Shown here piece after piece: positions 1-52,151 of a stretch of 64,000 nucleotides of DNA (the stretch's first letter is position 1; each line of letters starts with the position of its first letter). The DNA comes from Salipiger thiooxidans (GTDB lineage: Bacteria; Pseudomonadota; Alphaproteobacteria; Rhodobacterales; Rhodobacteraceae): contig NZ_FNAV01000003.1 in assembly GCF_900102075.1 (NCBI RefSeq), positions 186,001-250,000 on the forward strand, in the 5' to 3' direction. A program made the translations under genes and the position numbers. The notes beneath the pieces are model-generated. The model was not told the DNA's origin. It worked only from the letters and a program-made list of their open reading frames with translations, and ran no database searches.

Positions 1-171
1 CTCGGCGGCGCGCATCATCGCGAACTTCTCCTCGCGCTCGCGTTCGACCCATCCGGGCGTCCAGTGGATGTGGTCGATGTGCACGACCGGCAGGCCGGTG
101 CGTGCGCCAAGCTGCCGGGCGAGGGTCGATTTCCCAGCGCCCGGCTGCCCGACAATCATAACGCGTTTCAC
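1..171 (-). CDS. P-loop NTPase, adenylate-kinase / topology-modulation-protein-like (partial)
   Basis: Only the first 57 codons are in the window; the rest lies before base 1. The N-terminus carries a textbook Walker A motif, GQPGAGKS at residues 8-15, followed by an HIDHIHW segment typical of small adenylate-kinase-like proteins annotated as FlaR or topology modulation protein. These bind ATP and phosphorylate small, often unknown, substrates. I chose the GTG start at 171 because it overlaps the stop of the upstream ABC transporter gene as GTGA, suggesting translational coupling; an ATG at 159 is the alternative. The exact substrate cannot be told from this fragment. Confidence 0.7.
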   Translation of the reverse strand, partial: MKRVMIVGQPGAGKSTLARQLGARTGLPVVHIDHIHWTPGWVEREREEKFAMMRAAE

Positions 172-3865: not shown

Positions 3866-3910
3866 GGGAATTGGGCCTTCGTCATTGAGGCGCGAAGTCT
3901 CCCCGATTCC

Positions 3911-4495
3911 CTACAGGAAAACCATGACCGAAAAGCTCCCCAGCGCGAGCGCCATGATCCGGGCAAAAATCCGCCACGCCCGCGGGGTCGTCAGCAGGTA
4001 GGTCAGCAGAGCCCCCGCGCTGGTCCAGAAGGTGCAGCAGAAGAGGTTGATTCCGGAAAAGGCGCTACCAAGCCGCAGTGCCTCGGCCAGCGGGCCGCCA
4101 CCGCCGGGATAGGCCGAGGCCGCGGCAAGTGCCACCGCCCAGACCTTGGGGTTCACCCACTGGAAGAGCGCGCCTTCGATCAGCGTCATGGGCCGGTCGC
4201 GATCGGCCTTGCCGCGACGCCGGTCCGCCGTCCAGAGGCCCCAGGCCATCCACATCATCCAGCCGCTGGCGGCGATCTTGAGGATGAGTTCCAGCGCCGG
4301 CGCCTCGCGCAGCAGCGCCGCGATGCCAAGCCCGGTGAGCCCGGCGGTGACGCCCACGCCCAGCACCACGCCGAAGAGATGCGGTAAGGTCCGGCGCAGG
4401 CCGAAGCGGGCACCGGAGGCGGTGAGCAGCACGACGTTCGGACCGGGCGAGAACAGGCCGAAGAACACGAACCCGTAGAGCGGATCGAGGATCAT
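3911..4495 (-). CDS. LysE/RhtB family amino-acid exporter
   Basis: A 194-residue, strongly hydrophobic protein. The N-terminus carries the family hallmark GLFSPGPNVVLLTASGARFG (about residues 13-32), and five to six membrane helices follow, as expected for LysE/RhtB carriers, which expel amino acids such as lysine, threonine or homoserine lactones from the cytoplasm. The length is close to the usual 200-210 residues. The ATG overlaps the stop of the cca gene (ATGA), making it the last cistron of the hslO-nudix-cca-lysE overlapping run. Nothing in the context links it to one particular amino acid. Confidence 0.85.
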   Translation of the reverse strand: MILDPLYGFVFFGLFSPGPNVVLLTASGARFGLRRTLPHLFGVVLGVGVTAGLTGLGIAALLREAPALELILKIAASGWMMWMAWGLWTADRRRGKADRDRPMTLIEGALFQWVNPKVWAVALAAASAYPGGGGPLAEALRLGSAFSGINLFCCTFWTSAGALLTYLLTTPRAWRIFARIMALALGSFSVMVFL

Positions 4496-5640
4496 TCCAG
4501 AAGGTCGTCCCGGGACAGCATGAACCCCGAGGCGATCCAGCGCCGTTCGAGCCTGCGCAGCGCCTCGCCCAGTTCCGGGCCCTGCACCCCGGGCATCAGG
4601 TCGCGCGGTTTCACGGGAAACGTCGCCCCGGCGCCCTTGGCGATCTCGTCCTGGACGAAGGGCGCGACCGGCTGCCCAAGGCTCGCCGCCCGCAGGATCG
4701 CCACGTCGAGCGCGATCTCCGCGCCGTGCCGCCAGGCGGTCTCGGCGATGGGCTCGTCCGAAGACAACAGGCTCTGATACTGCCCAAGTCGCTTCTGTTG
4801 CCCCCGCGAGAGCCGCAGCGACGCGCTGTCATAATACCCGAGCCCCGCCAGCCGGCGCATCGGGTCGGGTGTGAGCCCGTGCCCCTGTTCCAGCGCGACA
4901 AGCGGCTGGATCGCCAGGATGCTGGCGCCGGGCAAAACCTTGTCGAGCACCCCGCTCTGGGCCATGACGCAGATCGCGATCCCGGGCTCGGGCGCCCGCA
5001 GGAGCCGCACCATCTCGTGCCCGACACGCTCGGCCGAGAGCTTTTGCAGACCGTCGAGATTGGCCGCGATCCCGGCAAGCGCCTCGGCGTCGACACCCTC
5101 GGCGGGGTCGCCGTACCATGCGATGAAACGGAAGAAGCGCAGGATGCGCAGATAATCCTCGCGGATGCGCTCGCCCGCATCGCCGATGAAGCGCACGCGC
5201 CGTGCCTCGAGATCCGGCAGCCCGCCGAGCGGGTCGAGCATCCTGCCCCGCGCGTCGGCATAGAGCGCGTTCATGGTGAAGTCGCGCCGCGCGGCATCCT
5301 CGGCCACGTCATCGGCATAGCGCACCACGGCGCGACGGCCATCGGTTTCGACATCGGCGCGATAGGTGGTGACCTCGTGCCCGACGCCATCGGCCACGAC
5401 GGTGACCGTGCCATGCTCGATGCCGGTGGGAACCGCCTTAAGACCGGCGCTCTCGGCCAGCAAGACCACGCGTTCGGGCCGCGCGTTGGTGGCGATGTCG
5501 ACGTCACCGACCGCGACATTCATCAGTGCATTGCGCACGCAGCCGCCGACCACGTAGGCCTCGTGCCCACCGGCCTCGAGCATGGCGAGCACGTGCTGTG
5601 TGGAATCACAGCTCAGCCAGTCGCCGGAAACCTGTGTCAC
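4492..5640 (-). CDS. cca: CCA tRNA nucleotidyltransferase
   Basis: This 382-residue enzyme adds or repairs the 3'-terminal CCA of tRNAs without a template. The nucleotidyltransferase head has the GGCVRNAL motif at about residues 32-39 and the metal-binding DVD at 46-48. Later features of the polyA-polymerase/CCA family are RRDFTMNAL and the GDAGERIREDYLRILRFFRF block. The GTG start overlaps the stop of the preceding NUDIX gene as GTGA, and its own stop overlaps the lysE-like start. The pairing with a CoA-pyrophosphatase-type NUDIX gene is, from memory, common in Rhodobacteraceae. Assignment is firm; whether it adds only A or all of CCA cannot be seen. Confidence 0.93.
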   Translation of the reverse strand: MTQVSGDWLSCDSTQHVLAMLEAGGHEAYVVGGCVRNALMNVAVGDVDIATNARPERVVLLAESAGLKAVPTGIEHGTVTVVADGVGHEVTTYRADVETDGRRAVVRYADDVAEDAARRDFTMNALYADARGRMLDPLGGLPDLEARRVRFIGDAGERIREDYLRILRFFRFIAWYGDPAEGVDAEALAGIAANLDGLQKLSAERVGHEMVRLLRAPEPGIAICVMAQSGVLDKVLPGASILAIQPLVALEQGHGLTPDPMRRLAGLGYYDSASLRLSRGQQKRLGQYQSLLSSDEPIAETAWRHGAEIALDVAILRAASLGQPVAPFVQDEIAKGAGATFPVKPRDLMPGVQGPELGEALRRLERRWIASGFMLSRDDLLE

Positions 5641-6242
5641 CCGTCCATCCGCCCGGCCAGCGCCCTCAGCATCCGCGCGGTGGCGCCCCAGATGTAATAG
5701 GGCCCGTAGGGAACGGTGTAATAGAGCCTGCGCTGGCCGCGCCAGCGCCGTCCCTGCACCGAGAACCGCGACCGATCGGTGACGTGCTCGAAGGGCACCC
5801 GGAAGATCTCGGCGACCTCGCCGGGCTCGGGCATCGGGTCGAACCTGTCACTGACAAGGCCCACGACCGGGGTGACGAGAAAGCCGGTGACGGTCTCGTG
5901 CGGGGGCATCGTGCCGAGGATCTCGACCGTTTCGGACTGGAGACCGACCTCTTCGCGCGCCTCGCGCAGAGCGGCGGCGACGGGGCCGTCGTCTTCCGGA
6001 TCCACCTTGCCGCCGGGAAAGGCGATCTGGCCCGGGTGGTGCTTGAGGCGGGAAGAGCGCTTGGTGAGCACCAGCTCGAGCCCCTCGGGTCCGGGCAGGA
6101 AGGCGGCCAGCACACCGGCCGGCCGCAGTTTGCGATTTTCGGGAAGAACCGTGCCGGGGTTCAGATCGAAATCGGACGAAGGCGCGCCGGTTTCCGCCAT
6201 CGCCCGGCGCAGGGCCGCGATCTGCTCCCCGGTTCGGCTCAC
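5637..6242 (-). CDS. NUDIX hydrolase, CoA pyrophosphatase type
   Basis: A 201-residue NUDIX enzyme. The Nudix box starts at GGKVDPEDDGPVAAALREAREEVGL in the middle of the protein, with the REAREE metal-binding helix. Upstream lies the LTKRSSRLKHHPGQIAFPGG stretch, which resembles the UPF0035 signature that marks CoA-diphosphatases (NudL/PCD1-like); these cleave CoA or oxidised CoA to 4'-phosphopantetheine and 3',5'-ADP. The GTG start overlaps the hslO stop (GTGA). Its tight coupling to hslO and cca implies co-expression rather than a shared pathway. Substrate choice is from family resemblance. Confidence 0.88.
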   Translation of the reverse strand: MSRTGEQIAALRRAMAETGAPSSDFDLNPGTVLPENRKLRPAGVLAAFLPGPEGLELVLTKRSSRLKHHPGQIAFPGGKVDPEDDGPVAAALREAREEVGLQSETVEILGTMPPHETVTGFLVTPVVGLVSDRFDPMPEPGEVAEIFRVPFEHVTDRSRFSVQGRRWRGQRRLYYTVPYGPYYIWGATARMLRALAGRMDG

Positions 6243-7219
6243 TTCCGGGCCTCGAACCCCACGCTCTCGGGGTCGAGCTCATAATGGCGACCGCAGAACT
6301 GGCAGTCCGCGGTGACCAGCCCGTCCTCGGTGGTCATCTTCTGGATGTCCTTGGCCGAGTAGATCGACAGCGACTGGCGCACCCGATCTTCCGAACAGGT
6401 GCAGCCGAAGCGCACCGACTGGGCGTCGAAGACGCGGGGCTGTTCCTCGTGGAAGAGCCGCACGAGCAGGTCGGTCGGCGGCAGGTCCGGACCGATCAGT
6501 TCGAGCTCGTCGACGGTGTCCACGTGGAAGTTCACGCGGCGCCAGTTCTCTTCCTCGTCGCCGGTGACCAGATCCTCGGGGCGGAGCAGTCCGTTTTCGC
6601 CGGTGCCGCCCTCGCCCGAGGCAAAGGGCGAGGCCTTGGGCATGGTCTGGATCATCAGGCCGCCGGCGCGCCATTCGCCGGTGCCGTCCGCCAGCATTGC
6701 CTTGCCGAAGTTCAGCGCGAAACGGGTCGGCAGCTGCTCGGACTGCGCGAAATAGGACTCGGCACACGCCGCGAGCGAACCGCCCGCAAGCGGGGTGATG
6801 CCCTGGTAGGGCGTGGTGCCCTTGCCCTGGTCGACGAGGATCGCGAAATAGCCGTCCTCGAGCTGGTCGAAGGCGGCGGCATCGCTGATCTTGCTGGCGT
6901 CATAGCTCGCATAGGCCCGGATGCGCGCCGGCTGCCCCTCTTTCTCGGGTGCGAAGTAGTCGGTCGCGATCATCCGCAGGGCGCCGCGGGTCTGCACCTG
7001 CAGCGAAAGCTTCCACCGCAGTTTCACCGTCTGCCCGATCAGCGCCGTCAGCAGCGCCATCTCGGCGACCAGTGCCTCGACCGGTTCCGGGTAGTCATGC
7101 TGGCTCAGGATGCCGTTCAGCGCACCGTCAAGCCGCGCCACCCGGCCACGGATGTCGGAGAGATCAAGCTGAAACGGAAGGACGGTATCGTCCCAGGCAA
7201 GTTTGCTGCCGATGGTCAT
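6239..7219 (-). CDS. hslO: Redox-regulated chaperone Hsp33
   Basis: Hsp33 is a cytosolic holdase activated by oxidation and unfolding. This 326-residue protein ends with the zinc-binding cysteine switch: CTC at residues 273/275 and CQFC at 306/309, matching the CXC-X(27-32)-CXXC pattern. The N-terminal substrate-binding fold, with LPFQLDLSDIRGRVARL and the GALRMIATDYF block, agrees with the family. The ATG start gives MTIGSKLAWDD, and the short gap to the divergent NUDIX gene (7220-7295) must hold both promoters. It is first in the operon with the CoA pyrophosphatase, cca and lysE-like genes. Confidence 0.95.
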   Translation of the reverse strand: MTIGSKLAWDDTVLPFQLDLSDIRGRVARLDGALNGILSQHDYPEPVEALVAEMALLTALIGQTVKLRWKLSLQVQTRGALRMIATDYFAPEKEGQPARIRAYASYDASKISDAAAFDQLEDGYFAILVDQGKGTTPYQGITPLAGGSLAACAESYFAQSEQLPTRFALNFGKAMLADGTGEWRAGGLMIQTMPKASPFASGEGGTGENGLLRPEDLVTGDEEENWRRVNFHVDTVDELELIGPDLPPTDLLVRLFHEEQPRVFDAQSVRFGCTCSEDRVRQSLSIYSAKDIQKMTTEDGLVTADCQFCGRHYELDPESVGFEARK

Positions 7220-7295
7220 GGGGTTTCCTTATCTGCCGCGCGTTGGCATACCGGCACCATATAGGCAGGACAAGCCAGATACCAAGGGGGCCGAC

Positions 7296-7733
7296 ATGAT
7301 CGCACGTTACGGAGCTTCGCCGGAACCCGGCCGCCGCTACACGCTTCGCCCCGGGGTCTACGCGATCCTGCCGCGCGACGGGGCGCTGCTGGTGACCCAT
7401 CAGCAAGAGCCCTGGCCCGAGTTCCAGTTGCCCGGCGGCGGCATCGACGCGGGCGAGCAGCCCCTGACCGCCCTGCACCGCGAGGTCTACGAAGAGACCG
7501 GCTGGCACATCGCCCGGCCGCGCCGGCTGGGAGCGTTCCGCCGCTTCGCCTACATGCCGGAATACGATCTCTGGGCCGAGAAGCTCTGCATCATCTACAC
7601 CGCCCTTCCCGTCCGGCCCCGCGGCGAGCCGACCGAGCCCGGCCACAGCGCGCACTGGATGGCGCCCGAGCTTGCGATGGAGCTGCTGGGCAACCCCGGC
7701 GACCGCGATTTCGTCGCGCGCTGCATGCGCTGA
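7296..7733 (+). CDS. NUDIX hydrolase
   Basis: A 145-residue NUDIX protein, about the minimum size of the fold. The Nudix box GGGIDAGEQ...HREVYEETGW lies at about residues 47-70 and contains every metal-ligand Glu. I start it at the ATG at 7296, which has an AAGGGGG ribosome binding site eight bases upstream; a longer in-frame extension to 7203 would overlap the divergent hslO promoter and start and looks spurious. The substrate is unknown; such short NUDIX enzymes hydrolyse nucleoside diphosphates linked to another group. It converges on the phosphatase gene, leaving seven bases between the stops. Confidence 0.85.
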   Translation: MIARYGASPEPGRRYTLRPGVYAILPRDGALLVTHQQEPWPEFQLPGGGIDAGEQPLTALHREVYEETGWHIARPRRLGAFRRFAYMPEYDLWAEKLCIIYTALPVRPRGEPTEPGHSAHWMAPELAMELLGNPGDRDFVARCMR

Positions 7734-7740
7734 GCGCGCC

Positions 7741-8988
7741 CTAGCAACCGACATATTCCACCAGCGCCGCCGAGACGTCGTCCTGCAGCGCGGTGCCCTT
7801 GCGGGTGATCTGGCTGAGGTTCCAGTAGAGATCGTCGAGAAACTCGGTCCCGCTGGCAGCGAGGCAACGACCGACCAGCGCCCGCAGCCCGTCCTCTTCG
7901 AGCATGGTGTTGTCCTTGAGCTCGGCCTCGGTGATACCGTCGGAATAGAGCAGAAGCCGGTCGCCCGGCGCCATGGCGAACTGGATCGGCGTATAGCTCA
8001 CCCCCGTCACCAGCCCCACCGGCAGACCGCCCTCGCCGATGAAGGACATGCTGCCATCGGCCCGTATCAGCAGCGGCGGCGGGTGCCCGGCCTGCACCAG
8101 CGTCACGTCGCCGGTGGCGAAGTTCAGCGTCATGTAGACCATGGTGAGATATTCCAGCACCCCGGGATCGGCGGAGAGCCGGTCGTTGAGCCGCACCGCC
8201 ACCTCTTCCGGCGGGCGGAAGGCGAGGAATTTGTTGTACCTCCGTTCAAGCGCGATGTTCTGGTCGGGGAAGTCGTTGCCAAGATATCCCGCCACCCGCG
8301 CGGTCATCAGCGCCGAGGTGATGCCGTGGCCCGAGACGTCGAGGCTGTAGACCCCGACGCCGGTCGCATTGGGGCTGAACATTCCGACGAGATCGCCGCC
8401 GACGTGCCCGCAGGGTTTCAGCAGCAGGCTGACGCGGGCGGTGCCGAAATCGCGGCTGCGCTCGGGGACCAGCGCCTCCTGGATCGTGCGGGCCTGCCGG
8501 AGATCGCGGTCGATGGCGTCATAGGCACTGCGCAGCCGGCCGAGCGTGTCCGACAGTTGCCGCTGCATCGACAGGATCCGTGCGCCGGCATTGATCCGGG
8601 CACGCAGCTCGTAGGAATTCACCGGCTTTGTCAGGAAGTCGTCGGCCCCCGCGTCGAGCCCGCGCGCGATCTCTTCCTTTTCGCCCTTCGAGGTGAGCAG
8701 GATGAAATAGCCGTAGCGGTCGCGCTTCAGCTCGCGGAACTGTCGGCAGAACTCGAGCCCGTCCATCCCCGGCATCATCCAGTCCGACAGCACCGCGTCG
8801 GGCACCATGGTGCGACAGATCTCGAGCGCCTGCTCGCCGCTGCTGGCCTCGAGCACCTCGAACCCCCAGCGCCGCATCACGGCGCAGAGAATCTTGAGCT
8901 GCACGGGGCTGTCATCCACCACGAGCACGCGCTGGAGCGAGGCCTCCGAGGTCGAGGCGGCAATCGTATCGGCGGGCTTCGGCTGCAA
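7741..8988 (-). CDS. Response regulator with SpoIIE/RsbU-type PP2C phosphatase domain
   Basis: A 415-residue two-domain signalling protein. Residues 20-135 form a CheY-like receiver with acidic pair D25/D26, phospho-acceptor D69 (LSDWMMPG), T99 and K121. A helical linker with coiled-coil character (about 135-180) leads to a SpoIIE/PPM phosphatase with metal-binding GGDL (197-200) and DVSGHG (217-222). Such proteins dephosphorylate a STAS-domain anti-anti-sigma factor or a similar partner when the receiver is phosphorylated. An HPt gene starts 155 bases away on the other strand, suggesting a phosphorelay like HptB-HsbR of Pseudomonas. No kinase, STAS or sigma gene is nearby, so the target is open. 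Confidence 0.9.
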   Translation of the reverse strand: MQPKPADTIAASTSEASLQRVLVVDDSPVQLKILCAVMRRWGFEVLEASSGEQALEICRTMVPDAVLSDWMMPGMDGLEFCRQFRELKRDRYGYFILLTSKGEKEEIARGLDAGADDFLTKPVNSYELRARINAGARILSMQRQLSDTLGRLRSAYDAIDRDLRQARTIQEALVPERSRDFGTARVSLLLKPCGHVGGDLVGMFSPNATGVGVYSLDVSGHGITSALMTARVAGYLGNDFPDQNIALERRYNKFLAFRPPEEVAVRLNDRLSADPGVLEYLTMVYMTLNFATGDVTLVQAGHPPPLLIRADGSMSFIGEGGLPVGLVTGVSYTPIQFAMAPGDRLLLYSDGITEAELKDNTMLEEDGLRALVGRCLAASGTEFLDDLYWNLSQITRKGTALQDDVSAALVEYVGC

Positions 8989-9143
8989 GCAGGCTCCTCA
9001 CGAACGGGGTGTGCAAGAGGTTTACCGGAGCCGGTCTTAATGTCCCCTTTACGCGGTTTCGTCGCCGGTCCGCCGCCGGCAAAGCGAGGCAAGGGAATCT
9101 TCACCTTTTGCTCCTAGTCCTGAACACGACCGGGAGGTGCGCT

Positions 9144-9479
9144 ATGATCGACTGGAGCCGCGTCGCCGAGTTGCGCGACGAAATTGGGGCCGAGGATTTT
9201 CAGGAGGTGGTCGACCTGTTCCTGGACGAGGTTGCAGGCGCCCTTGCCGAACTTCAGGAGGCGGCGGAAGACCCTGGCGAACTCGAGGCGCGGCTGCATT
9301 TCCTGAAGGGAAGCGCGCTGAACCTTGGTTTCGCGGCGCTGTCCGAGCTCTGCCATCATGGCGAGACGGCCGCGCGCAGGGGCGCGACCGGCGGTATCTC
9401 TCTCGACCGGGTGGCCGATGTCTATGAACGCTCGCGCGCGGAATTCCTGCGCGAGCTGCCGCAGCGGCTTACCGCCTGA
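9144..9479 (+). CDS. HPt (histidine phosphotransfer) domain protein
   Basis: A 111-residue, all-helical, single-domain protein. The HPt signature is clear: LHFLKGSALNLGF with the phospho-accepting H52 followed by LKG-SA, then a second helix ELCHHGE. It would carry a phosphoryl group from a hybrid histidine kinase to a receiver domain, plausibly that of the divergent phosphatase gene at 7741-8988. The ATG at 9144 is chosen because a GGGAGGT ribosome binding site ends six bases before it. The frame is open further upstream to 9009 but that stretch lacks the family pattern. Confidence 0.88.
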   Translation: MIDWSRVAELRDEIGAEDFQEVVDLFLDEVAGALAELQEAAEDPGELEARLHFLKGSALNLGFAALSELCHHGETAARRGATGGISLDRVADVYERSRAEFLRELPQRLTA

Positions 9480-9491
9480 CCCGTGAAAGGG

Positions 9492-10718
9492 TCAGATCAG
9501 GAACTGCGACAGGACCTCGTCCTCGGTGATGTCGCGATAGGTGTAGCCGCGGCTGCCGAGCTCGGCGAAGAGCCGCCCGAAGTTCGCGGGGTCCGAGGTC
9601 TCGATCCCGATCAGCACCGAACCGAAGTTGCGCGCGGACTTCTTCAGATACTCGAACCGGGCAATGTCGTCTTCGGGACCCAGCAGGTTGAGGAAATCCT
9701 TGAGCGCGCCGGGACGCTGCGGCAGCCGCAGGATGAAGTACTTCTTCACCCCCGAGTAGCGCTGCGCGCGTTCCTTGACCTCGGGCAGACGCTCAAAATC
9801 GAAATTCCCGCCCGAAGTGACGCAGACCACGGTCCGGCCGCGGATCGACTGGCCGAGATCCTTGAGCGCATCGACCGCCAGCGCGCCGGCGGGTTCGAGC
9901 ACGATGCCCTCGACGTTCAGCATCTCGAGCATGGTCGTGCAGAGCCTGTCCTCGCTGATCGTCAGCGTGTTGGCGAGCCCCACGCCCTTGAGCCGCTCGA
10001 AGGTCCGCGCACCGATGCGCGCCACGGCGGCACCGTCGGCAAAGGTGTTGACCCCGGGCAGCGTCACCGGCTTGCCCGCCTCGAGCGCCGCCCGCAGGCA
10101 GGCCCCGCCCGACGGCTCGACGAAGGTGTATTGCGTGTCGTTGCCGAAGTAGCTCAGCATCCCGGCGCCAAGCCCGCCGCCGCCCACCGGGATCACCACG
10201 TGGTCGGGCGCACGGCCCAGCTGCGACTCGATCTCGACCGCGACGCTGGCCTGCCCCTCGATCACATCCTCGTCGTCGAAGGGCGACAGGAAATGCCCGC
10301 CCTTCTCGGCACAGAAGGCCTGCGCCGCGGCGAGCGTGTCGTCGAAATAATCGCCGGTCATCACGATCTCGACCGCGTCGCCGCCGAACATCCGGGTCTT
10401 CTGGATCTTCTGGTCGGGCGTCGTGACCGGCATGAAGATCACGCCCTTCTTGCCGAAGTGGCGGCACATGTAGGCCACGCCCTGCGCGTGGTTGCCGGCG
10501 CTGGCCGCGACGAAGAGATCGGCCTCGGGGCGCTTGCTCATGGCATTGAACGCGCCGCGCAGCTTGTAGCTGCGGACCGGGCTCAGATCCTCGCGCTTGA
10601 GCCAGATCTCGGCGCCGAAGCGCTCCGAGAGGTGCGCGTTGCGCAGCAGGGGAGTTTCGGGAAAAACCTCGCGCATGTGCTGGGCGGCTTGGCGGGCGTC
10701 ATCGAGAAAGCGTGTCAT
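9492..10718 (-). CDS. ilvA: Threonine ammonia-lyase (threonine dehydratase)
   Basis: This PLP enzyme converts threonine to 2-oxobutanoate and ammonia, the first step of isoleucine synthesis. With the ATG at 10718 it has 408 residues. The PLP-binding lysine is K52 in SYKLRGAF, the phosphate-binding loop is the glycine-rich VGGGGLGAGML, and the catalytic core is followed from about residue 325 by an ACT-like regulatory segment (KKYFILRLPQRPGALKDFLNLLGP), which in this family mediates allosteric inhibition. An upstream TTG at 10736 would add six residues and is less likely. It sits alone between an HPt gene and a membrane protein gene. Confidence 0.92.
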   Translation of the reverse strand: MTRFLDDARQAAQHMREVFPETPLLRNAHLSERFGAEIWLKREDLSPVRSYKLRGAFNAMSKRPEADLFVAASAGNHAQGVAYMCRHFGKKGVIFMPVTTPDQKIQKTRMFGGDAVEIVMTGDYFDDTLAAAQAFCAEKGGHFLSPFDDEDVIEGQASVAVEIESQLGRAPDHVVIPVGGGGLGAGMLSYFGNDTQYTFVEPSGGACLRAALEAGKPVTLPGVNTFADGAAVARIGARTFERLKGVGLANTLTISEDRLCTTMLEMLNVEGIVLEPAGALAVDALKDLGQSIRGRTVVCVTSGGNFDFERLPEVKERAQRYSGVKKYFILRLPQRPGALKDFLNLLGPEDDIARFEYLKKSARNFGSVLIGIETSDPANFGRLFAELGSRGYTYRDITEDEVLSQFLI

Positions 10719-45053: not shown

Positions 45054-45262
45054 TCAATCGACCCCTGACGCAATCGGTTTCCGGCACCAGAGCTAGTCGG
45101 AATCCCCGTCCCTGTCTATCGACCCTCCCGTGGCAGGTGGCGCCCTGTGGGATAAACGGCACGTCCCCGCCCATGCCGAACGCGGACATTTTGAAACGTT
45201 AAGCCGGCGGAAACGGATGCCCGGCTATCACCATCGACGGGGTGAATAACGAGGTGGTGGAA

Positions 45263-46117
45263 ATGGCGGTCGACAGCAATGTCGCGCCGGTCATCATCAA
45301 GAGAAAGAAAGTATCGGGCGGCGACGGGCATCACGGCGGCGCCTGGAAGGTCGCCTATGCCGATTTCGTCACGGCGATGATGGCTTTCTTTCTTCTGATG
45401 TGGCTGCTCAACGCGACGACCGAGAAACAGCGCAAGGGGCTCGCGGACTACTTCAGTCCGACGATCGCGGTCAGCCGGATGTCCGGTGGCGGCGACGGCA
45501 CCCTCGGCGGCGAAAGCGTCTTCACCGAGGCGGTGCTGCCGCGGGTCGGCACCGGCGCCACCAGTCTCAATCCCATGGCCCAGAACCGCGCCCGCGGCTC
45601 CTCGGATCCCGGCCAGGCCCGGGAGACCGGCAAGGCCGAAGAGGCCGGCGCGAGCGATGAAGACCTCAAGGCGCTCGAGGACCTGCTCATGGGACGCGGC
45701 GGCGAGACCATGATCGACGACAACCTCATGCGCCACATCGCGACGCGGGTGACCGACGAAGGCCTCGTGGTCGAACTCTTCGAGACCGAGGACGCGCGCC
45801 TCTTCGACGAGACCGGGGCGCCGATGCCGCTCCTGCGGGATCTCGCGGGGGTCATTGCGCGGGTCTCGCGGCTGGTGACCAACCCGCTCGCGGTCGAGGG
45901 CCACACCACGGCCTTTCCCATCGTGCTCGCGCGCGATCCCTCGTGGGACGTGTCGACGCGGCGGGCGGACGATTTCCGGCAGCTCCTGCTCGCCGGCGGG
46001 CTCGACCGCAAGCGCATCGACCGGGTGACCGCCCATGCCGACCGCGAGCCGTCTCAGAGCAACCCCATGGATGCGCGCAACAACCGGCTCGAGGTCATCT
46101 TCCTGCGCAAGGGGTGA
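45263..46117 (+). CDS. motB: Flagellar motor stator protein MotB
   Basis: MotB anchors the MotA stator to peptidoglycan and carries the proton-binding aspartate. With the ATG at 45263 the protein has 284 residues. HGGAWKVAYADFVTAMMAFFLLMWLLNA (residues 24-51) matches MotB, and D34 is the proton-binding residue. The C-terminal half holds an OmpA-like peptidoglycan-binding domain (VEGHTT..., ending SNPMDARNNRLEVIFLRKG). A GTG seven codons upstream is possible; GAGGTGG before the ATG favours the latter. motA is not adjacent. It is followed by flgE on the same strand. Confidence 0.9.
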   Translation: MAVDSNVAPVIIKRKKVSGGDGHHGGAWKVAYADFVTAMMAFFLLMWLLNATTEKQRKGLADYFSPTIAVSRMSGGGDGTLGGESVFTEAVLPRVGTGATSLNPMAQNRARGSSDPGQARETGKAEEAGASDEDLKALEDLLMGRGGETMIDDNLMRHIATRVTDEGLVVELFETEDARLFDETGAPMPLLRDLAGVIARVSRLVTNPLAVEGHTTAFPIVLARDPSWDVSTRRADDFRQLLLAGGLDRKRIDRVTAHADREPSQSNPMDARNNRLEVIFLRKG

Positions 46118-46226: not shown

Positions 46227-47780
46227 ATGACCATCTCTTCGTCGCTCAATGCCGGGGTTTCGGGGCTTTCCGGAAACGCAAGCCGGCTTGCCGCGATCTC
46301 CGACAACATCGCCAACTCCTCGACCTACGGCTATCGCCGGGTCGAGACGGATTTCACCGCACTGGTGATGTCGAGCGGAACCAGAACCTACACCGCCGGG
46401 GGCACCTCGGTCGACAACCTGCGTCTGGTCGACCAGGGCGGCGCGCTGGTCTCGACCAGCAACGCCACCGACCTCGCCATCGACGGCATCGGCATGCTGC
46501 CGGTGGTCGCGGTCTCGCAATACGAGGCGACCGGAGAGCCTGAGCTGCTGCTGACCTCGACGGGCTCCTTCCGCATCGACGAGAACGGTTACCTGGCAAG
46601 CGAGTCCGGCTACTACCTGATGGGCTGGCCTGCGAACCTCGACGGGACGATCCCCAACTATCCGCGCGACACGATCAACGGGCTTGAGCCCATCCAGTTC
46701 AGCTTGAGCCTCACCGGTGACCCGACCACCTCGGTCGACATGGCGCTCAACCTTCCGGCCACCGCGACACAGGCCGGCGCCTCGGGCGAGACCGAGTATC
46801 TCGAGATCGAGTATTTCGACAACGTCGGCATCTCGCAGAGCGTCTCGATCACCTTCACGCCCACGGTGCCCGCCACCGGCATGTCCAACGAATGGACCAT
46901 GGTGATGACGGACTCCGCACAGGCGGGCGCGGTGATCGGCGAGTACACCATCACCTTCGACAACACGAGCGGCAGCGGTGGCACCATCCTGTCGGTCGCC
47001 GACATCACCGGCGGCGTCTATGACGGCGCGACCGGTCTCTTCACCGTCAACGTGTCCGGCGGCCCCATCGAGTTCCACATCGGCGCGGTTGGCGAGACCG
47101 GCGGCCTCTCGCAGCTTGGCGACGGCTTCGCGCCCATCTCGATCAGCAAGGACGGCTCCTCGGTCGGCAACATGGTCTCGGTCGAGGTCGACGAGAACGG
47201 TTATGTCAGCGCGCTCTACGACAGCGGCCAGAGCCAGGTGCTCTACCAGATCCCGCTCGCCGACCTGCCGAACTACAACGGCATGATCGCGGTGGACGGC
47301 TCGACTTTCCGGCCCTCGCCCGAGAGCGGCTCGTTCTTCCTGTGGGACGCGGGCGACGGTCCGACCGGCAGCGTCAAATCTTACGCCCGGCAGGAGTCCG
47401 CCACGGACATCGCGCGTGAGCTGACTGACATGATCCGCACCCAGCGCGCCTATTCGTCCAACGCGAAGGTGATCCAGACCGTGGCATTGTCCTTTGCGGT
47501 CGCAACCGACTTGCCGGTCGAGATCTCGCCCTGGGTCATGGCGAGGTTGTTGTTGATGGATTTGAGGGTCTGCAGCGCCACCATGGCGCCGTTGTTCGTC
47601 AGGATGCTAGACATTGATATGTGTCCTTACAGTCGCGCCGCGCTTTACGCGGCTTTTGTGTTGTGCCGGAACCGGCTTCCTGAACGTCTTTCTGACGAGA
47701 GCAGACCGGGCGTCACGCCCGCCGCGCCATCCAATCGGATGCGAGGCCACCTTGCCTCGGGAATCCTAACGGTGCGCTAA
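46227..47780 (+). CDS. flgE: Flagellar hook protein FlgE, 3' end lost and fused to antisense fliC
   Basis: FlgE subunits build the flagellar hook. Residues 1-418 (to about base 47481) look like an intact FlgE: MTISSSLNAGVSGLSGNASRLAAISDNIANSSTYGYRRV, then a TYTAGGTSVDN...DQGGALV block, and near the end SATDIARELTDMIRTQRAYSSNAKVIQTV. The expected terminal 15-20 residues (of the DEML...LVNLKR type) are missing. Instead the frame reads through 99 further codons made from the reverse complement of flagellin and its 5' region, ending at 47780. The D0 terminal helix needed for hook assembly is therefore disrupted. Start ATG at 46227 follows AGAAAGG. It could also be an assembly chimera. Confidence 0.85.
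   Translation: MTISSSLNAGVSGLSGNASRLAAISDNIANSSTYGYRRVETDFTALVMSSGTRTYTAGGTSVDNLRLVDQGGALVSTSNATDLAIDGIGMLPVVAVSQYEATGEPELLLTSTGSFRIDENGYLASESGYYLMGWPANLDGTIPNYPRDTINGLEPIQFSLSLTGDPTTSVDMALNLPATATQAGASGETEYLEIEYFDNVGISQSVSITFTPTVPATGMSNEWTMVMTDSAQAGAVIGEYTITFDNTSGSGGTILSVADITGGVYDGATGLFTVNVSGGPIEFHIGAVGETGGLSQLGDGFAPISISKDGSSVGNMVSVEVDENGYVSALYDSGQSQVLYQIPLADLPNYNGMIAVDGSTFRPSPESGSFFLWDAGDGPTGSVKSYARQESATDIARELTDMIRTQRAYSSNAKVIQTVALSFAVATDLPVEISPWVMARLLLMDLRVCSATMAPLFVRMLDIDMCPYSRAALYAAFVLCRNRLPERLSDESRPGVTPAAPSNRMRGHLASGILTVR
47474..47614 (-). pseudogene. fliC: Flagellin gene 5' remnant (fliC), truncated by fusion with flgE
   Basis: On the minus strand an ATG at 47614 opens MSSILTNNGAMVALQTLKSI, then NNNLAMTQGEISTGKSVATAKDNAT, which is the N-terminus of Rhodobacteraceae flagellin. 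Similarity stops after about 47 codons at the flgE junction near 47474-47481; no further flagellin sequence exists in the window. An AAGGA ribosome binding site lies before the ATG, and about 200 bases of upstream sequence are preserved. The expected size is about 380-420 residues, so almost nine tenths of the gene is missing. Confidence 0.85.
47766..47780 (-). promoter_or_regulatory. CtrA-box-like site upstream of the fliC remnant
   Basis: Read on the minus strand the sequence is TTAG-N7-TTAG (spacer CGCACCG), about 150 bases upstream of the fliC start. Two of eight defined bases differ from TTAA-N7-TTAA. Confidence 0.35.
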
Positions 47781-47820: not shown

Positions 47821-48177
47821 TCAAGCGCGGCGCTCCAGCCGACTGTCTTGTTCGGCGCTGATGGTCTCCCTGCGCCCCTGTGCATCATAGACATCCATGG
47901 ATTTCCGGATCTGGCGCAGCACCCCCAACCTTTCCGCGACATTGCGAATCCCGGCGAGCGTCTGATCGAACAGTTCCTGGTTGCGGCGCAGCTTCAGGCG
48001 CAGAGGGCGAATCGCGTCACTGTTGTCGGGCGGGCTTTCGGCCAGCCGGTCGATCAGGGCGATCTTCTCCTCCATGATCGGGCCGATGTCGTCCAGCGCG
48101 CCGTCAAGCAAGGCGCGGCGTTCGCGGTCGAGCAGCGCCTCGAGCGCCTCGAGTGTGGCGGGGGCCATCTCAGTCAT
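47821..48177 (-). CDS. FlgN-like flagellar export chaperone (tentative)
   Basis: A 118-residue, all-helical, charged protein: LEALEALLDRERRALLDGALDDIGPIMEEKIALIDRLAE, then IRPLRLKLRRNQELFDQTLAGIRNVAERLG. The layout (a helical hairpin, then a long third helix) resembles FlgN, the export chaperone of FlgK and FlgL. It overlaps the flgJ-like gene upstream by eight bases and precedes the flagellin remnant. FlgN proteins are poorly conserved, so the call rests on size, predicted helices and context. Its presumed clients flgK and flgL are not in the window. Confidence 0.65.
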   Translation of the reverse strand: MTEMAPATLEALEALLDRERRALLDGALDDIGPIMEEKIALIDRLAESPPDNSDAIRPLRLKLRRNQELFDQTLAGIRNVAERLGVLRQIRKSMDVYDAQGRRETISAEQDSRLERRA

Positions 48178-48430
48178 GCAGTCGCTCCTTTATAGCGTGA
48201 TAGATCGATTCGGCGAGCCCGATGCCGCCTTGCTCCGCCAGGACCCGCGCGTGCTCAGTGCGCAGGAAAGAGCTGAATTGTTCCTCGCCGATGCCCCCAC
48301 CGAAGCCCGCCGGACTCTCGCCAAGCCGCGCTGCCTTCAGCATTTCGTTCAGGAATGTGGCTTCCAGCTCGACGGCCGCTTTGCGCAGCGCGTCCGGAGG
48401 CTTGGCCGGGCCAGTACCGGTGATTTCCAT
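48170..48430 (-). CDS. Rod-binding protein, FlgJ N-terminal-like
   Basis: An 86-residue protein equal to the rod-binding domain of FlgJ without the muramidase part, as is usual in alphaproteobacteria. Signature segments are LRKAAVELEATFLNEMLKAARL and EEQFSSFLRTEHARVLAEQGGIGLAESIYHAI, close to the family pattern ending SGGIGLAD. I start it at the ATG at 48430, which has GGAG seven bases before it; a longer start at 48463 has no ribosome binding site. It overlaps the flgN-like gene and is divergent from fliK. Confidence 0.8.
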   Translation of the reverse strand: MEITGTGPAKPPDALRKAAVELEATFLNEMLKAARLGESPAGFGGGIGEEQFSSFLRTEHARVLAEQGGIGLAESIYHAIKERLHD

Positions 48431-48477
48431 CAGGTGGCTCCAATTGGACTCAACTGAGCCCATTCAATCGCGTGACG

Positions 48478-48492: not shown

Positions 48493-48540
48493 GGATGTGC
48501 ACGATATGTTCCCGGGAACGGAAGAATTCCCGGAGTGACC

Positions 48541-51471
48541 ATGCTGAGCCAACTCACAGGCTTTCTGAGCCACGCGCTTGTCGCGAAGGACAAGGAGAAC
48601 GGTGCCGCCGAGCGCGGCTGCGAGATGCCCTTCGACGAGGTCTTTCGAAGCGTCCGCAATGAGTCGCGCTCCTCGGGCGATGACAGTTTGCCTGAGGCCG
48701 ATGCTGAGCCGCGGCTTGAAGAGGTATCTGCCTCAGATCCTTCTTCCGCGGAGGCTATAGAGGTCGGGCGGAATGAGGCGTTCGCTGAAGAGGAGGATGT
48801 CGAAGATCTGCCTGGTTTGCCCGACCACGATGACAGTCAGGAAGCGCAAAGTGGCGCGACATTTCCAGGGAAGCAGGATGGTCCGGCACATCGGGACGGC
48901 GAACTGGGTGCCGGACTTGTCGCCAAGCACGACAATGCATTGACCATGTTCACAACCAGACGTTCGATAGCCCCAACTAACGCAGTCGCAACGGAGGTTT
49001 CGGCCCGTGGCGCGGCGGCCTCGATGGGGGGTGTACAGCCCGCGCATGTGGCCGCCCCTATCTCCGCGGACGTGCCGCATATCCAAAGGATAGAACGCAG
49101 CACCAGGTCGGAGCAGGCGGACACGCCTCGAATGCCCTCGTACCTTCAAGGCCAGGAGCTGGCAGGCAAAGACAGAGACCCATTCGCCGTCGCGCGACCA
49201 GGCCCTGCGCCGCAAGCCGATTCAGCACCTCAGAAAACCAGAGCTGAATTTCGATCAGTCGCGTCCGGCACGCTTGTCCGCTCCAAAGCGGAAAAACCGT
49301 CAGAAAATGAAGCGTCTATGCCGACCGGTCGAACGCAAGACCAGGAGTCTCCTTCAGCGTCACGCTTGGCCGAAACCCACCCACAGAAAAGTGTCAGTGG
49401 CGGCGAACCTCGAAGAATGAGGCTTGCACATCAAAGGGTTGATAGACCAAGCACTTCGTTTCAGGTTCCTTCCACCTCACGGAACCAAGTCGACATCTTC
49501 GAACCCAAGAGCGCGGTGCGCACTGTGATCCTGGGTGACGTGGAAGGGACCGGAACGAATGTCGCCATGCCATACCCGCGCGGGGAGCTCACGACCGAAC
49601 CTCCGGCGAGTCGCTTGGAAACGAACTTGCGTTCGGGTTTAGACGTGTCCCTGGCAAGACCAGGACACACCGCAGTCCGGGCACGTGGCGAAGTGCGCTT
49701 TTCGGCCGAGACTAGCCAAGTGCGTGACGGCAGAATTTCTTATGGGAGCCGGCTTGATGTTCCCATGCCGGCGCATGGCACTATCGAAGGCATCCCTGAC
49801 ACAGAGGTCTCGGCAACTCCTTCTGTCGATGGTGACGCCCCGAAAGCAAGACGGAACACAGAAAACGGCGCTCAATCAAAAACACTCGCAATGCCCTCTG
49901 TTTCGGCGGAAGCAGCTGGTCTCGCTGCAGATCGAACATCCAAGGAAGTTGGTGAGCAAGTTGAGGTCGCGTTCGGACTGCGCTCATCGGCACGCCGTCC
50001 AGCATCCCTTAGTGACTTGGGACATATCCACCCATCATCGCGTACCCCACAGTTTGAGCCAACGCCCGAACCAGCAAGGGCGCAGATCCTGTTCACAGGC
50101 GCTGCCCGCGAAGCAATGGCCCATCTGCCAGACACAAATAGCGCCGAACCTATCGCCGCCGAAACCCTAAGGAGCGCAAACAATTCCGGGCAGCAGCATG
50201 AGCCTTCCGCTGAAGTCGGCCATGTGGTCTCCGGAGAGGTGTCCGCTACGCGAAGCACGGTCCAAGGCCGTTCAGAAGCCAACAAAGACAATATCTTCGG
50301 AAAGCCGCCTGAGGGGAAGATGGCGACGGCGGAGGCCGGCGAAGATGCACCGAGCCTGGATCCAATCGGGAAGCTTGTACCACCTGAGACGCGACGGCTG
50401 CCAGACCCTCAACTGGCGAAGAGCCTCCCCTTTTCGGAAAATTCTCGTGAAAAAACCGTCCAGGTTCCGGGCGCTGGACAGGTACGATCCATAGACACCA
50501 TCTCAGACTCGACCTCTGAAGCGGCCCCGGAAACTGGTGCGGAGACACTCGCACACGGCATCGTCGGTGGTCGCATCGACAAGCGCGAGACCACACAAGT
50601 GCCAGCGCTTGTGTGGCAACGCTCATCGCTGGGCACCGCAGCACCACAAGCGTTGGGCCATCCTCGCGCGTATTCCGATGAGACTGTCCGGTTTTTCCGC
50701 CACCGGCCGGAGCAGACCACCGCGCGTTTAAGCGGCGCAAAGTTGCAGAGCCCCACGCCAGAGCCCGTGACGCAAACGCAAAGGCTACGCCGCGTAGAAA
50801 GCGGGATGCTGCGCGAGAATATGGACGAGGGGACCTCACCCCAGCAGATTGGGGGCAAGATTGTCTCCGCACAAGGTTTTCCGATCCGCTCGGATCTGCT
50901 TTCGCAGCGAACCCAGCCTACAGGATCAGTGCTCTCGCCTGTTTTGGATGACGGCGACCCCGAGCCGCTCGAGGCCGGCCTCGGTATGTTGTCGGGCGAG
51001 GCGCGTGCGTCCGGTTCGGCCTCGCAGGCTCCTGCCGGCACTGCGTTTCACCGCACGGAAACCGCAACTTCGGTGCTGAGGCAGGTGATTGAGGGGGTCA
51101 CGACCGCCCCCGACGCTGCCAATGATGTCATCGAGCTGCAACTCCGGCCGGAGGAACTTGGCCATTTGCGCTTCCGGATGATTCACGGAGAGCATGGGCT
51201 TCTGCTCAACATTTCGGCCGATCGACCGGAGACGCTCGACCTTCTGCGCCGTCATGTGGACCAATTGGCCCGGAGTCTATCGGACCTTGGTTACGGGGAC
51301 GCCAGCTTCAGCTTCGGCGAGGGTGGACAGAGCAATGGTCGAGGCGGTGAGGCCGGTAGAGGTATGGCGACCGATCATGCGGCGCCAATCGACAGATACC
51401 AGGACATCGAAACTCCGAGAATGACCGCACGCGGGGTTACCCCGTCCGACGGCCTCGACATCCGCATCTGA
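48541..51471 (+). CDS. fliK: Flagellar hook-length control protein FliK
   Basis: FliK measures the hook and switches the export gate. At 976 residues it is unusually long, since many are 400-700. Nearly all of it is low-complexity, polar and probably disordered. Only the last about 130 residues hold the conserved C-terminal domain: NDVIELQLRPEELGHLRFRMIHGEHGLLLNISADRPETLDLLRRHVDQLARSLSDLGYGDASFSF. The ATG at 48541 is preceded by CGGAG at the right distance; a GTG two codons earlier is less likely. Base composition looks less GC-rich than the neighbours from about 48.7 to 50.8 kb. flgD follows after eleven bases. Confidence 0.85.
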   Translation: MLSQLTGFLSHALVAKDKENGAAERGCEMPFDEVFRSVRNESRSSGDDSLPEADAEPRLEEVSASDPSSAEAIEVGRNEAFAEEEDVEDLPGLPDHDDSQEAQSGATFPGKQDGPAHRDGELGAGLVAKHDNALTMFTTRRSIAPTNAVATEVSARGAAASMGGVQPAHVAAPISADVPHIQRIERSTRSEQADTPRMPSYLQGQELAGKDRDPFAVARPGPAPQADSAPQKTRAEFRSVASGTLVRSKAEKPSENEASMPTGRTQDQESPSASRLAETHPQKSVSGGEPRRMRLAHQRVDRPSTSFQVPSTSRNQVDIFEPKSAVRTVILGDVEGTGTNVAMPYPRGELTTEPPASRLETNLRSGLDVSLARPGHTAVRARGEVRFSAETSQVRDGRISYGSRLDVPMPAHGTIEGIPDTEVSATPSVDGDAPKARRNTENGAQSKTLAMPSVSAEAAGLAADRTSKEVGEQVEVAFGLRSSARRPASLSDLGHIHPSSRTPQFEPTPEPARAQILFTGAAREAMAHLPDTNSAEPIAAETLRSANNSGQQHEPSAEVGHVVSGEVSATRSTVQGRSEANKDNIFGKPPEGKMATAEAGEDAPSLDPIGKLVPPETRRLPDPQLAKSLPFSENSREKTVQVPGAGQVRSIDTISDSTSEAAPETGAETLAHGIVGGRIDKRETTQVPALVWQRSSLGTAAPQALGHPRAYSDETVRFFRHRPEQTTARLSGAKLQSPTPEPVTQTQRLRRVESGMLRENMDEGTSPQQIGGKIVSAQGFPIRSDLLSQRTQPTGSVLSPVLDDGDPEPLEAGLGMLSGEARASGSASQAPAGTAFHRTETATSVLRQVIEGVTTAPDAANDVIELQLRPEELGHLRFRMIHGEHGLLLNISADRPETLDLLRRHVDQLARSLSDLGYGDASFSFGEGGQSNGRGGEAGRGMATDHAAPIDRYQDIETPRMTARGVTPSDGLDIRI

Positions 51472-51482
51472 GGAGGTAACCC

Positions 51483-52151
51483 ATGCAAACCGGATCTGTC
51501 GGGGCGGCGAACGCCTCAATCTCTTCCTCGAACACGGCGAGCACGAACAAGACTGTGCTCAGCTCCGATTTCGAGACGTTTCTCAAGATGCTCACCACGC
51601 AGATGCAGAACCAGGATCCGCTGAATCCGCTCGACACCACGGAGTACGCGACGCAGCTCGCGACCTTCTCCTCGGTCGAGCAGCAGGTGCTGACCAACGA
51701 CCTGCTCAAGGAACTGACCGGCGTCATCGGCGGCAACCAGTTCCAGCATCTTGCCGGCTGGATCGGGAAACAGGCGCTTTCAGACGCGCCGGTCTTCTAC
51801 GGTGGGGCGCCGATCGTGTTGCGGCCGGAGTATGCAAGCGGCGCGGATGGAGCGCGGCTGGTCGTGCGGAACTCCGGCGGGTCGGAGGTGCAGACCCTGA
51901 CCCTCGATATGTCTGATCCGGTGATCGCCTGGGTCGGCGTGGACGACCTCGGCGATCCCCTTCCCTCTGGTGTCTACAGCTTCCAGATCGAAAGCCTCTC
52001 GGGCAGCGGGGTGATCGGGAGATCCGACGCGCAGGTGTATAACCCGATCATCGAGGTGCGGCAGCAGAACGGTGAGGTGATGCTGACCCTCTCCGATGGG
52101 AGCGAGATCCGTGCCTCGGATGTGACCGCGCTGCGATCGGGCATCGCATGA
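51483..52151 (+). CDS. flgD: Flagellar hook assembly scaffold FlgD
   Basis: FlgD caps the growing hook. The 222-residue protein has the conserved N-terminus with DFETFLKMLTTQMQNQDPLNPLDTTEYATQLATFSSVEQQ (about residues 29-68), the strongest family marker, followed by a FlgD Ig-like/tudor part with VGVDDLGDPLPSGVYSFQI. A GAGGAGG ribosome binding site covers the end of fliK, so the pair is coupled. With flgE truncated nearby, FlgD may have no normal client in this locus. Confidence 0.93.
   Translation: MQTGSVGAANASISSSNTASTNKTVLSSDFETFLKMLTTQMQNQDPLNPLDTTEYATQLATFSSVEQQVLTNDLLKELTGVIGGNQFQHLAGWIGKQALSDAPVFYGGAPIVLRPEYASGADGARLVVRNSGGSEVQTLTLDMSDPVIAWVGVDDLGDPLPSGVYSFQIESLSGSGVIGRSDAQVYNPIIEVRQQNGEVMLTLSDGSEIRASDVTALRSGIA

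Follow-up and report, generated by a model that had tools for sequence, protein, structure and literature searches.

When flagella are lost, this is commonly interpreted as random decay that occurs independently. Illegitimate recombination between short direct repeats, be it slippage or microhomology-mediated deletion, leaves one composite copy behind, and site-specific excision of chromosomal elements is known, e.g., from developmental excision elements and from prophage excision. The closest described counterpart of the locus presented here are the losses of the fla1 cluster in Rhodobacterales: fla1 was reported to be strictly vertically inherited, with sporadic independent losses in this order (Tomasch et al., 2025, PMC12363192). 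Both cases concern the same chromosomal cluster, lost in scattered strains against a vertically inherited background, and share the order motB-flgEKLI ... flgD. In contrast to the present study, the losses are counted in the parts of that article available to us, without breakpoints, remnants or a recurrent join. We found no report of a flgE-fliC join in the literature searched, with supplements and most subscription papers lying outside its reach, and the portions seen of PMC8267831, PMC7179689, and PMC13386836 hold nothing on it. As far as these sources go, the novel aspect is the recurrence of a base-identical flgE-fliC join, while sporadic fla1 loss itself had already been reported (PMC12363192).

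The window, a stretch of 64,000 nucleotides from Salipiger thiooxidans (G000), contains a head-on fusion of a truncated flgE and a truncated flagellin gene. This had been proposed by a sequence-only reading and is borne out by the sequence, the Pfam ends and the position on the contig. Downstream of an intact motB (45242..46117, plus strand, 291 aa; Pfam MotB_plug 7.4e-20), the 5' part of flgE occupies 46227..47482 on the plus strand, i.e., codons 1-418 and the GT of codon 419. The gene then enters the reverse complement of a flagellin N-terminus with zero inserted bases. From 47469 onward, the junction reads GTGATCCAGACCGT up to the join and GGCATTGTCC beyond it. The flagellin start codon is located at 47614, and the 5' part of fliC (47485..47614, minus strand) comprises residues 1-43 and the first base of codon 44. 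The 3' end of flgE and the remainder of fliC are lost. If compared with intact flgE and fliC, the two bases between both parts (47483..47484) can be assigned to either gene; this exchange window comprises three bases instead of two where flagellin codon 44 encodes serine. One detail of the earlier reading requires correction: the flagellin side had been thought to reach T45, while this residue derives from flgE, a threonine being found there in 0/42 intact flagellins.

Pfam analysis detected Flg_bb_rod in the flgE part, whereas Flg_bbr_C stops at position 36 of 46; on the flagellin side, Flagellin_N covers positions 1-41 of 139 with 25.9 bits, slightly below the cut-off of 26.6. The FlgE part is 90-91% identical to FlgE of a genome taken as Salipiger aestuarii DSM 22011, and the flagellin part shows 83% identity over 47 aa to FliC of G006 (taken as S. 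bermudensis AmN7-7). Beyond the join follow a flgN-like chaperone gene (47821..48177, minus strand, 118 aa; Pfam FlgN 2.1e-5, which is below the curated cut-off, and in the same place in G006), a flgJ-like gene for a rod-binding protein (48170..48463, minus strand, 97 aa; Pfam Rod-binding 2e-8), fliK (48535..51471, plus strand, 978 aa; Pfam Flg_hook 2.1e-13), and flgD (51483..52151, plus strand, 222 aa; Pfam FlgD 9.8e-20). The junction lies far from the ends of its 434,706-base contig, and a 241-base junction query gave one full-length match in G000. A second, partial match (101 bases, 75%) belongs to another flagellin with a frame of 432 aa on contig C39. This orphan gene is complete and of the DNAAVWAI type (L002 1501-2799, contig C39 from about 236,358 down to 235,060), follows a gene read by eye as polyphosphate kinase, and persists although no FlhA was found in G000.

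Comparison with intact relatives shows which genes have gone. G006 and the window are collinear save for one gap of 20.6 kb between the flgE and fliC blocks, and the same single gap is obtained against G018 and G003 (20.6 and 21.3 kb). In eight intact relatives both sites are 20.6-21.7 kb apart and in the same orientation. The gap in G006 comprises flgK, flgL, flgI, motA, a gene of 750 aa without Pfam match, flhA, fliR, flhB, and fliL, and furthermore flgH, flgA, flgG, flgF, fliQ, fliE, flgC, flgB, fliI, a DUF1217 gene, flbT, flaF, and most of fliC; among these, the flgL sequence scanned gave no hit in Pfam, while fliR, fliQ, fliE, and flgB take their names from position and sequence only. A DNA search of G000 with 18.5 of the 20.6 kb, a query that begins inside flgL and does not include flgK, matched nothing but the fliC remnant and the flagellin on C39. 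FlgI and FlhA proteins were not found in the G000 assembly, while each search was positive in 19 of the 20 genomes of the genus, and FlhA of any type was likewise not found. FlgE gave a single match in G000; the same search also picks up FlgF/G-like genes in relatives. FliP is kept elsewhere in G000, next to frames read by eye as FliL, FliF, and FliH.

An inversion, one end of which the earlier reading had held possible, or a relocation is ruled out by the missing FlgI and FlhA and by the 18.5 kb of gap DNA that match only flagellin pieces in G000. The other option of that reading, a single large deletion between flgE and fliC, holds given the collinearity with one gap and the absence of the intervening genes, and the gap content agrees with its view that genes for hook, filament and motility were lost in one step. 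Thus the locus in G000 is the product of a 20.6-kb deletion of the fla1 cluster core. This deletion looks recent because all flagellar genes that the window still contains are open. Loss of the export-gate genes flhA, flhB, fliR, and fliQ, together with genes for rod, ring, hook-filament junction and filament, would result in an aflagellate cell, and since no FlhA of any type was found, G000 should be aflagellate. One member of the genus, G002 (taken as S. pallidus), is not collinear: its fliC piece is opposite to flgE and the flank past flgD is ~80 kb off. This rearranged cluster is still FlhA-positive (L116-L118, L125-L126).

The join is not restricted to S. thiooxidans. It occurs at the identical base in 17 genomes, hereafter carriers, namely 13 genomes from the census described below as well as G008, G014, G015 (L041, Alloyangia pacifica KcN7-14), and the metagenome-assembled genome L062. 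The first further cases, G014 and G008, attracted attention because their flgE frames are unusually long; a locus scan then yielded G015 and L062. A search with the exact pattern hit seven of 394 family genomes including G000, while the reversed-pattern control hit none. With one mismatch permitted and either T or C accepted at the diagnostic base discussed below, 13/394 genomes were matched against two for the control; this added G137, G170, and G299, and zero joins with the fliC base C. Three pattern matches were discarded as chance, since G217 has its match immediately next to, but not within, a complete fliC, and G219 and G273 show none of the flagellar genes sought at their loci. Independent of any pattern, G171, G420, and G399 were recognized by locus inspection. 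Gene by gene, 11 loci show the order motB, truncated flgE, truncated fliC, flgN and flgJ (if detected), fliK, flgD, and ubiB; the six other carrier loci follow it as far as visible, with that of G399 stopping before fliK.

The presence of the join coincides with the absence of fla1-type FlhA. Within the genus, fla1-type FlhA (at least 84% identity) was detected in 16 of 20 genomes, and the other four all carry the join. Among 11 carriers tested, none possesses fla1-type FlhA, four of them having only a homologue of 36-41% identity, and the census list of 273 FlhA-positive genomes does not contain the remaining six. G008, G015, and G014 (L171, L172, L173) hold another FlhA with 40-41% identity, presumably of the fla2 type. 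Judged by this gene, these three strains may still swim, unlike G000.

Since the genome of G000 is a draft of 68 contigs, an assembly artefact has to be considered. However, the 6-8 bases shared by both sites are too short to cause a false join, the lost genes did not turn up elsewhere in G000, and the same join is present in genomes of seven contigs (G014), three contigs (G134) and a single contig (G299 and G399). We consequently attach practically no weight to this explanation.

To find fla1 losses irrespective of the join, 394 family genomes from 393 genera were surveyed. FlgE (E<=1e-70) was found in 298 and FlhA (E<=1e-180) in 273 of them, and comparison of both lists by hand yielded 36 genomes with FlgE yet without fla1 FlhA. 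All 36 flgE loci were inspected. The gene is truncated in 13 genomes (G000, G134, G137, G147, G159, G170, G171, G184, G188, G299, G313, G399, and G420), and in 13/13 the join is at the same base. Since FlgE must match at E<=1e-70, this count refers to losses that spare most of flgE. In the other 23 genomes flgE is complete and followed by flgK, eleven of these loci being seen over about 3 to 4.3 kb only. Nine of the 23 possess a complete flgE-K-L-I, as judged from 14 such loci fetched, while nothing else of the cluster was seen in the DNA retrieved; the contigs of G058 and G276 stop directly behind flgI. Such FlhA-negative genomes with complete flgE-K-L-I do not qualify as cases of the flgE-fliC event. 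G070 carries a divergent cluster with a 40% FlhA.

Several other loci were observed along the way. Two, which belong to the 23 genomes with complete flgE, show different deletion joins: G247 (L215, about 6,950) connects flgI codon 69 to flgD codon 53, and in G145 (L222, about 4,820) flgK codon 168 is fused to a site close to ubiB. In G040, G101, and G379 (L209, L212, L219), which form one FlgE clade, a complete flgE-K-L-I is followed by an unrelated operon with 65-82% protein identity, and neither flhA nor fliC was seen in the 20-kb stretches of these genomes. A Rhodobacteraceae fla locus with a FlgE identical to that of G033 appeared in L058 (JAFKDC010000001.1), which is titled Enemella evansiae TN21-6. 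It was set aside as an actinobacterial carrier of the fla cluster, being probably mislabelled.

The distribution of the join was analyzed on a FastTree phylogeny of FlgE alone, which comprises 154 rows, 139 of them distinct, includes the carriers deliberately and has many weak forks. The 17 carriers fall into 15 clades, requiring 15 changes and thus 15 losses, provided that loss is irreversible; the well-supported branches force nine changes. Shuffling gave a mean of 16.3 changes, and 66/500 shuffles were as low as the observed 15, i.e., carriers are hardly clustered. For 13 of 17 carriers, the closest FlgE belongs to a genome whose flgE is complete, in the case of G170 by one bit only. For example, FlgE of G008 is nearest to G009, with 99% identity. 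At the DNA level, G008 and the intact G009 are 91.6% identical over the 8.6 kb up to the join, where G009 has 21.3 kb extra, and 84.7% identical over 1.3 kb right of the join, fliK being unaligned. Segment by segment, G009 is nearest to G008 in motB, the flgE parts, the fliC 5' UTR, flgN, flgJ, flgD, and ubiB.

These data bear on a rival scenario, in which one old deletion allele passed from lineage to lineage as its flanks recombined homologously, e.g., through gene transfer agents. Gene transfer agents carry a few kilobases and could pass on the deletion, while an intact segment of 20 kb is beyond their capacity. Such a spread would explain the identical base without any special mechanism. 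It fits with the finding that G014, G015, and L062 have a rare 17-base haplotype beside the join in common, which occurs in 1/112 distinct intact genes and is absent from the neighbours shown. Since these three share it, some events may not be independent. The 132-bp fliC fragment of G008 points in the same direction, as G010 (93.2%) and G013 (92.4%) are slightly closer to it than the sister genome G009 (90.9%). However, the other flanks look local: G008 and G009 share 95.0% identity in the 3' part of flgE and 92.9% in the fliC 5' UTR, the top values among pairs with G008. Furthermore, the last 15 bases before the join are no closer among carriers (identity 0.838) than between carriers and intact genomes (0.855), intact genomes among each other reaching 0.878.

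The apparent age of the deletions argues against old spread as well. The flgE part is open in 16/17 carriers, G299 being frameshifted, and each deletion thus looks young. Signs of decay are a frameshift in flgD of G008 and the lack of a detectable flgJ in G014. With the query used, flgN was not found in 9/17 carriers, and neither flgN nor flgJ was found in G014; a missing flgN was set aside as a sign of decay because this gene is poorly conserved. The state of the remnants suggests that the deletions of the carriers are young events starting to decay. In addition, the strictly vertical inheritance reported for fla1 speaks against a spread between lineages, and together with the sporadic losses it fits to independent deletions, as far as that article was available (PMC12363192). 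Weighing both sides, we regard the spread of one old allele as unlikely. From the FlgE tree and from the finding that carriers do not, on average, share a haplotype next to the join, we infer an independent origin of the deletions and therefore a deletion hot spot: flgE codon 419 is probably joined to fliC codon 44 in a recurrent and base-precise manner, by many deletions in the family.

What directs these events? The sequence-only reading had proposed a microhomology-mediated join. The shared bases are real, as both sites have 6-8 contiguous bases in common in 8/8 intact genomes measured, with CCAGAC at both sites in all eight and two more matching bases in three. If ordinary microhomology-mediated deletion were at work, these 6-8 bases alone would direct each event and recurrence would reflect conserved coding motifs. 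In one case, G005, the site indeed ranks near the top of the gapped scores (25 vs. a best score of 28). However, ungapped alignments that are equal or better number 77-600 within flgE and fliC and 2,200-9,745 in the wider flanks of the same eight genomes. If gaps are allowed, 26 to 4,875 blocks are equal to or better than the site in 20 genomes, although this scoring is lax and gives ranks only, and G002 and others may be without the collinear site arrangement. Homology alone was rejected as a sufficient cause on the basis of ungapped and gapped scoring. According to rough arithmetic, nine independent events and 77 equal pairs would agree by chance with a probability of the order of 77 to the power of -8.

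Moreover, the join itself lies outside of the shared block. In 17/17 carriers it reads GT to the left and NG to the right, beyond the one mismatch (T/C) that follows the shared block. At this diagnostic base flgE's T is found in all 17 carriers. The flagellin base is C, with rare exceptions; codon 45 reads GCN in 40/42 intact flagellins and TCG in two. Because every carrier has the flgE T, the exchange took place in the next two or three bases in 17/17. Pairing within the shared block predicts C instead. The 13/13 truncated flgE genes of the census with one and the same join are difficult to reconcile with microhomology alone too, as varied joins would be expected. The proposed microhomology is thus present, yet insufficient given the position of the join, the many equal or better pairs and the recurrence, and we consider it improbable as the only cause. 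In summary, the abundance of equal or better pairs and the join outside the shared block argue for a recurrent hot spot rather than for homology alone.

The join might also be kept for its product, either a short flagellin N-terminal peptide or a truncated FlgE, so that only this join survives. In favor of this idea, the flgE part is open in nearly all carriers as stated above, and the flagellin-side frame was recorded for 12/16 carriers examined. In the window this frame has 54 aa and ends in antisense flgE (47450..47614, minus strand), with a tail that is not conserved among carriers: it halts at DN[A/S]TV in four carriers other than G000, while others have longer tails. Given these varying ends, a functional chimeric peptide was rejected. 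The frameshifts in flgE of G299 and flgD of G008 and the flgJ not found in G014 count against selection for a product as well; furthermore, a useful product would not depend on a base-exact join, and the export gate of fla1 has been lost. The explanation is thus very improbable. The opposite strand of the window holds a fusion frame of 517 aa (46227..47780, plus strand), which comprises FlgE 1-418 and an antisense-flagellin tail. It is taken as a chance frame, and the stop-to-stop frames of the carriers vary from 451 to 554 aa where listed.

With respect to the mechanism behind the hot spot, the locus resembles illegitimate recombination in that two short, similar and directly oriented sequences flank the deletion and one composite copy remains. 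It differs in that the shared block has only 6-8 bp for a distance of >20 kb, that many equal or better pairs are ignored, and that the exchange is found just outside the block in 17/17. Site-specific excision, in turn, resembles the present case in the base-exact join in separate lineages and in the direct orientation of two sites. However, Pfam revealed no recombinase among the 20 G006 proteins and seven window proteins scanned, a set that excludes fliR, fliQ, fliE, and flgB, and the sites reside in conserved, wobble-variable coding sequence. The join DNA varies at wobble positions among carriers, which is uncommon for the site of a strict recombinase. There is no extra synonymous constraint at the flgE site, where codon usage resembles that of its neighbours (114 distinct genes, by eye), and the idea of a flgE site conserved at the DNA level was dropped, as the codon usage of these genes gives no sign of it. 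Five 60-mers were folded and compared with shuffled versions, and a single one, the fliC site of G009, stands out (z -2.4); no hairpin excess was obtained for the fliC site of G006, either flgE site or the window junction.

One might envision the following scenario. In flgE, ATCCAGACNGT is followed by NGAY, and in the reverse complement of fliC, GCCCAGACNGC is followed by NG[C/A]; both would be joined directly in front of the NG, and the stretch between them would be lost. Strand exchange or template switching would be guided by the imperfect CCAGACNG(T/C)NG repeat together with a putative feature nearby that sets the point of exchange. The observed product would arise if the flgE strand switched templates across a T-G wobble, which leaves the choice of the site unexplained. 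A recombinase would account for this choice, yet none was recognized among the proteins scanned. We favor such guided strand exchange or template switching, to which we assign roughly an even chance, over a true site-specific recombinase, which appears rather unlikely.

A more far-reaching idea would be that the fla1 core represents an excisable block, with a putative site-specific activity cutting ~20 kb at one base at the flgE and fliC coding sites. While we deem this doubtful, it would, if true, allow cells to give up swimming irreversibly, and the fixed losses across the family would be captured instances of this switch. Should a single base-exact deletion indeed recur in many lineages, a mutational hot spot would partly channel how a major marine group loses its flagella. 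If true, this bears on convergent gene loss, on swim-or-stick lifestyles, and on the prediction of traits from genomes.
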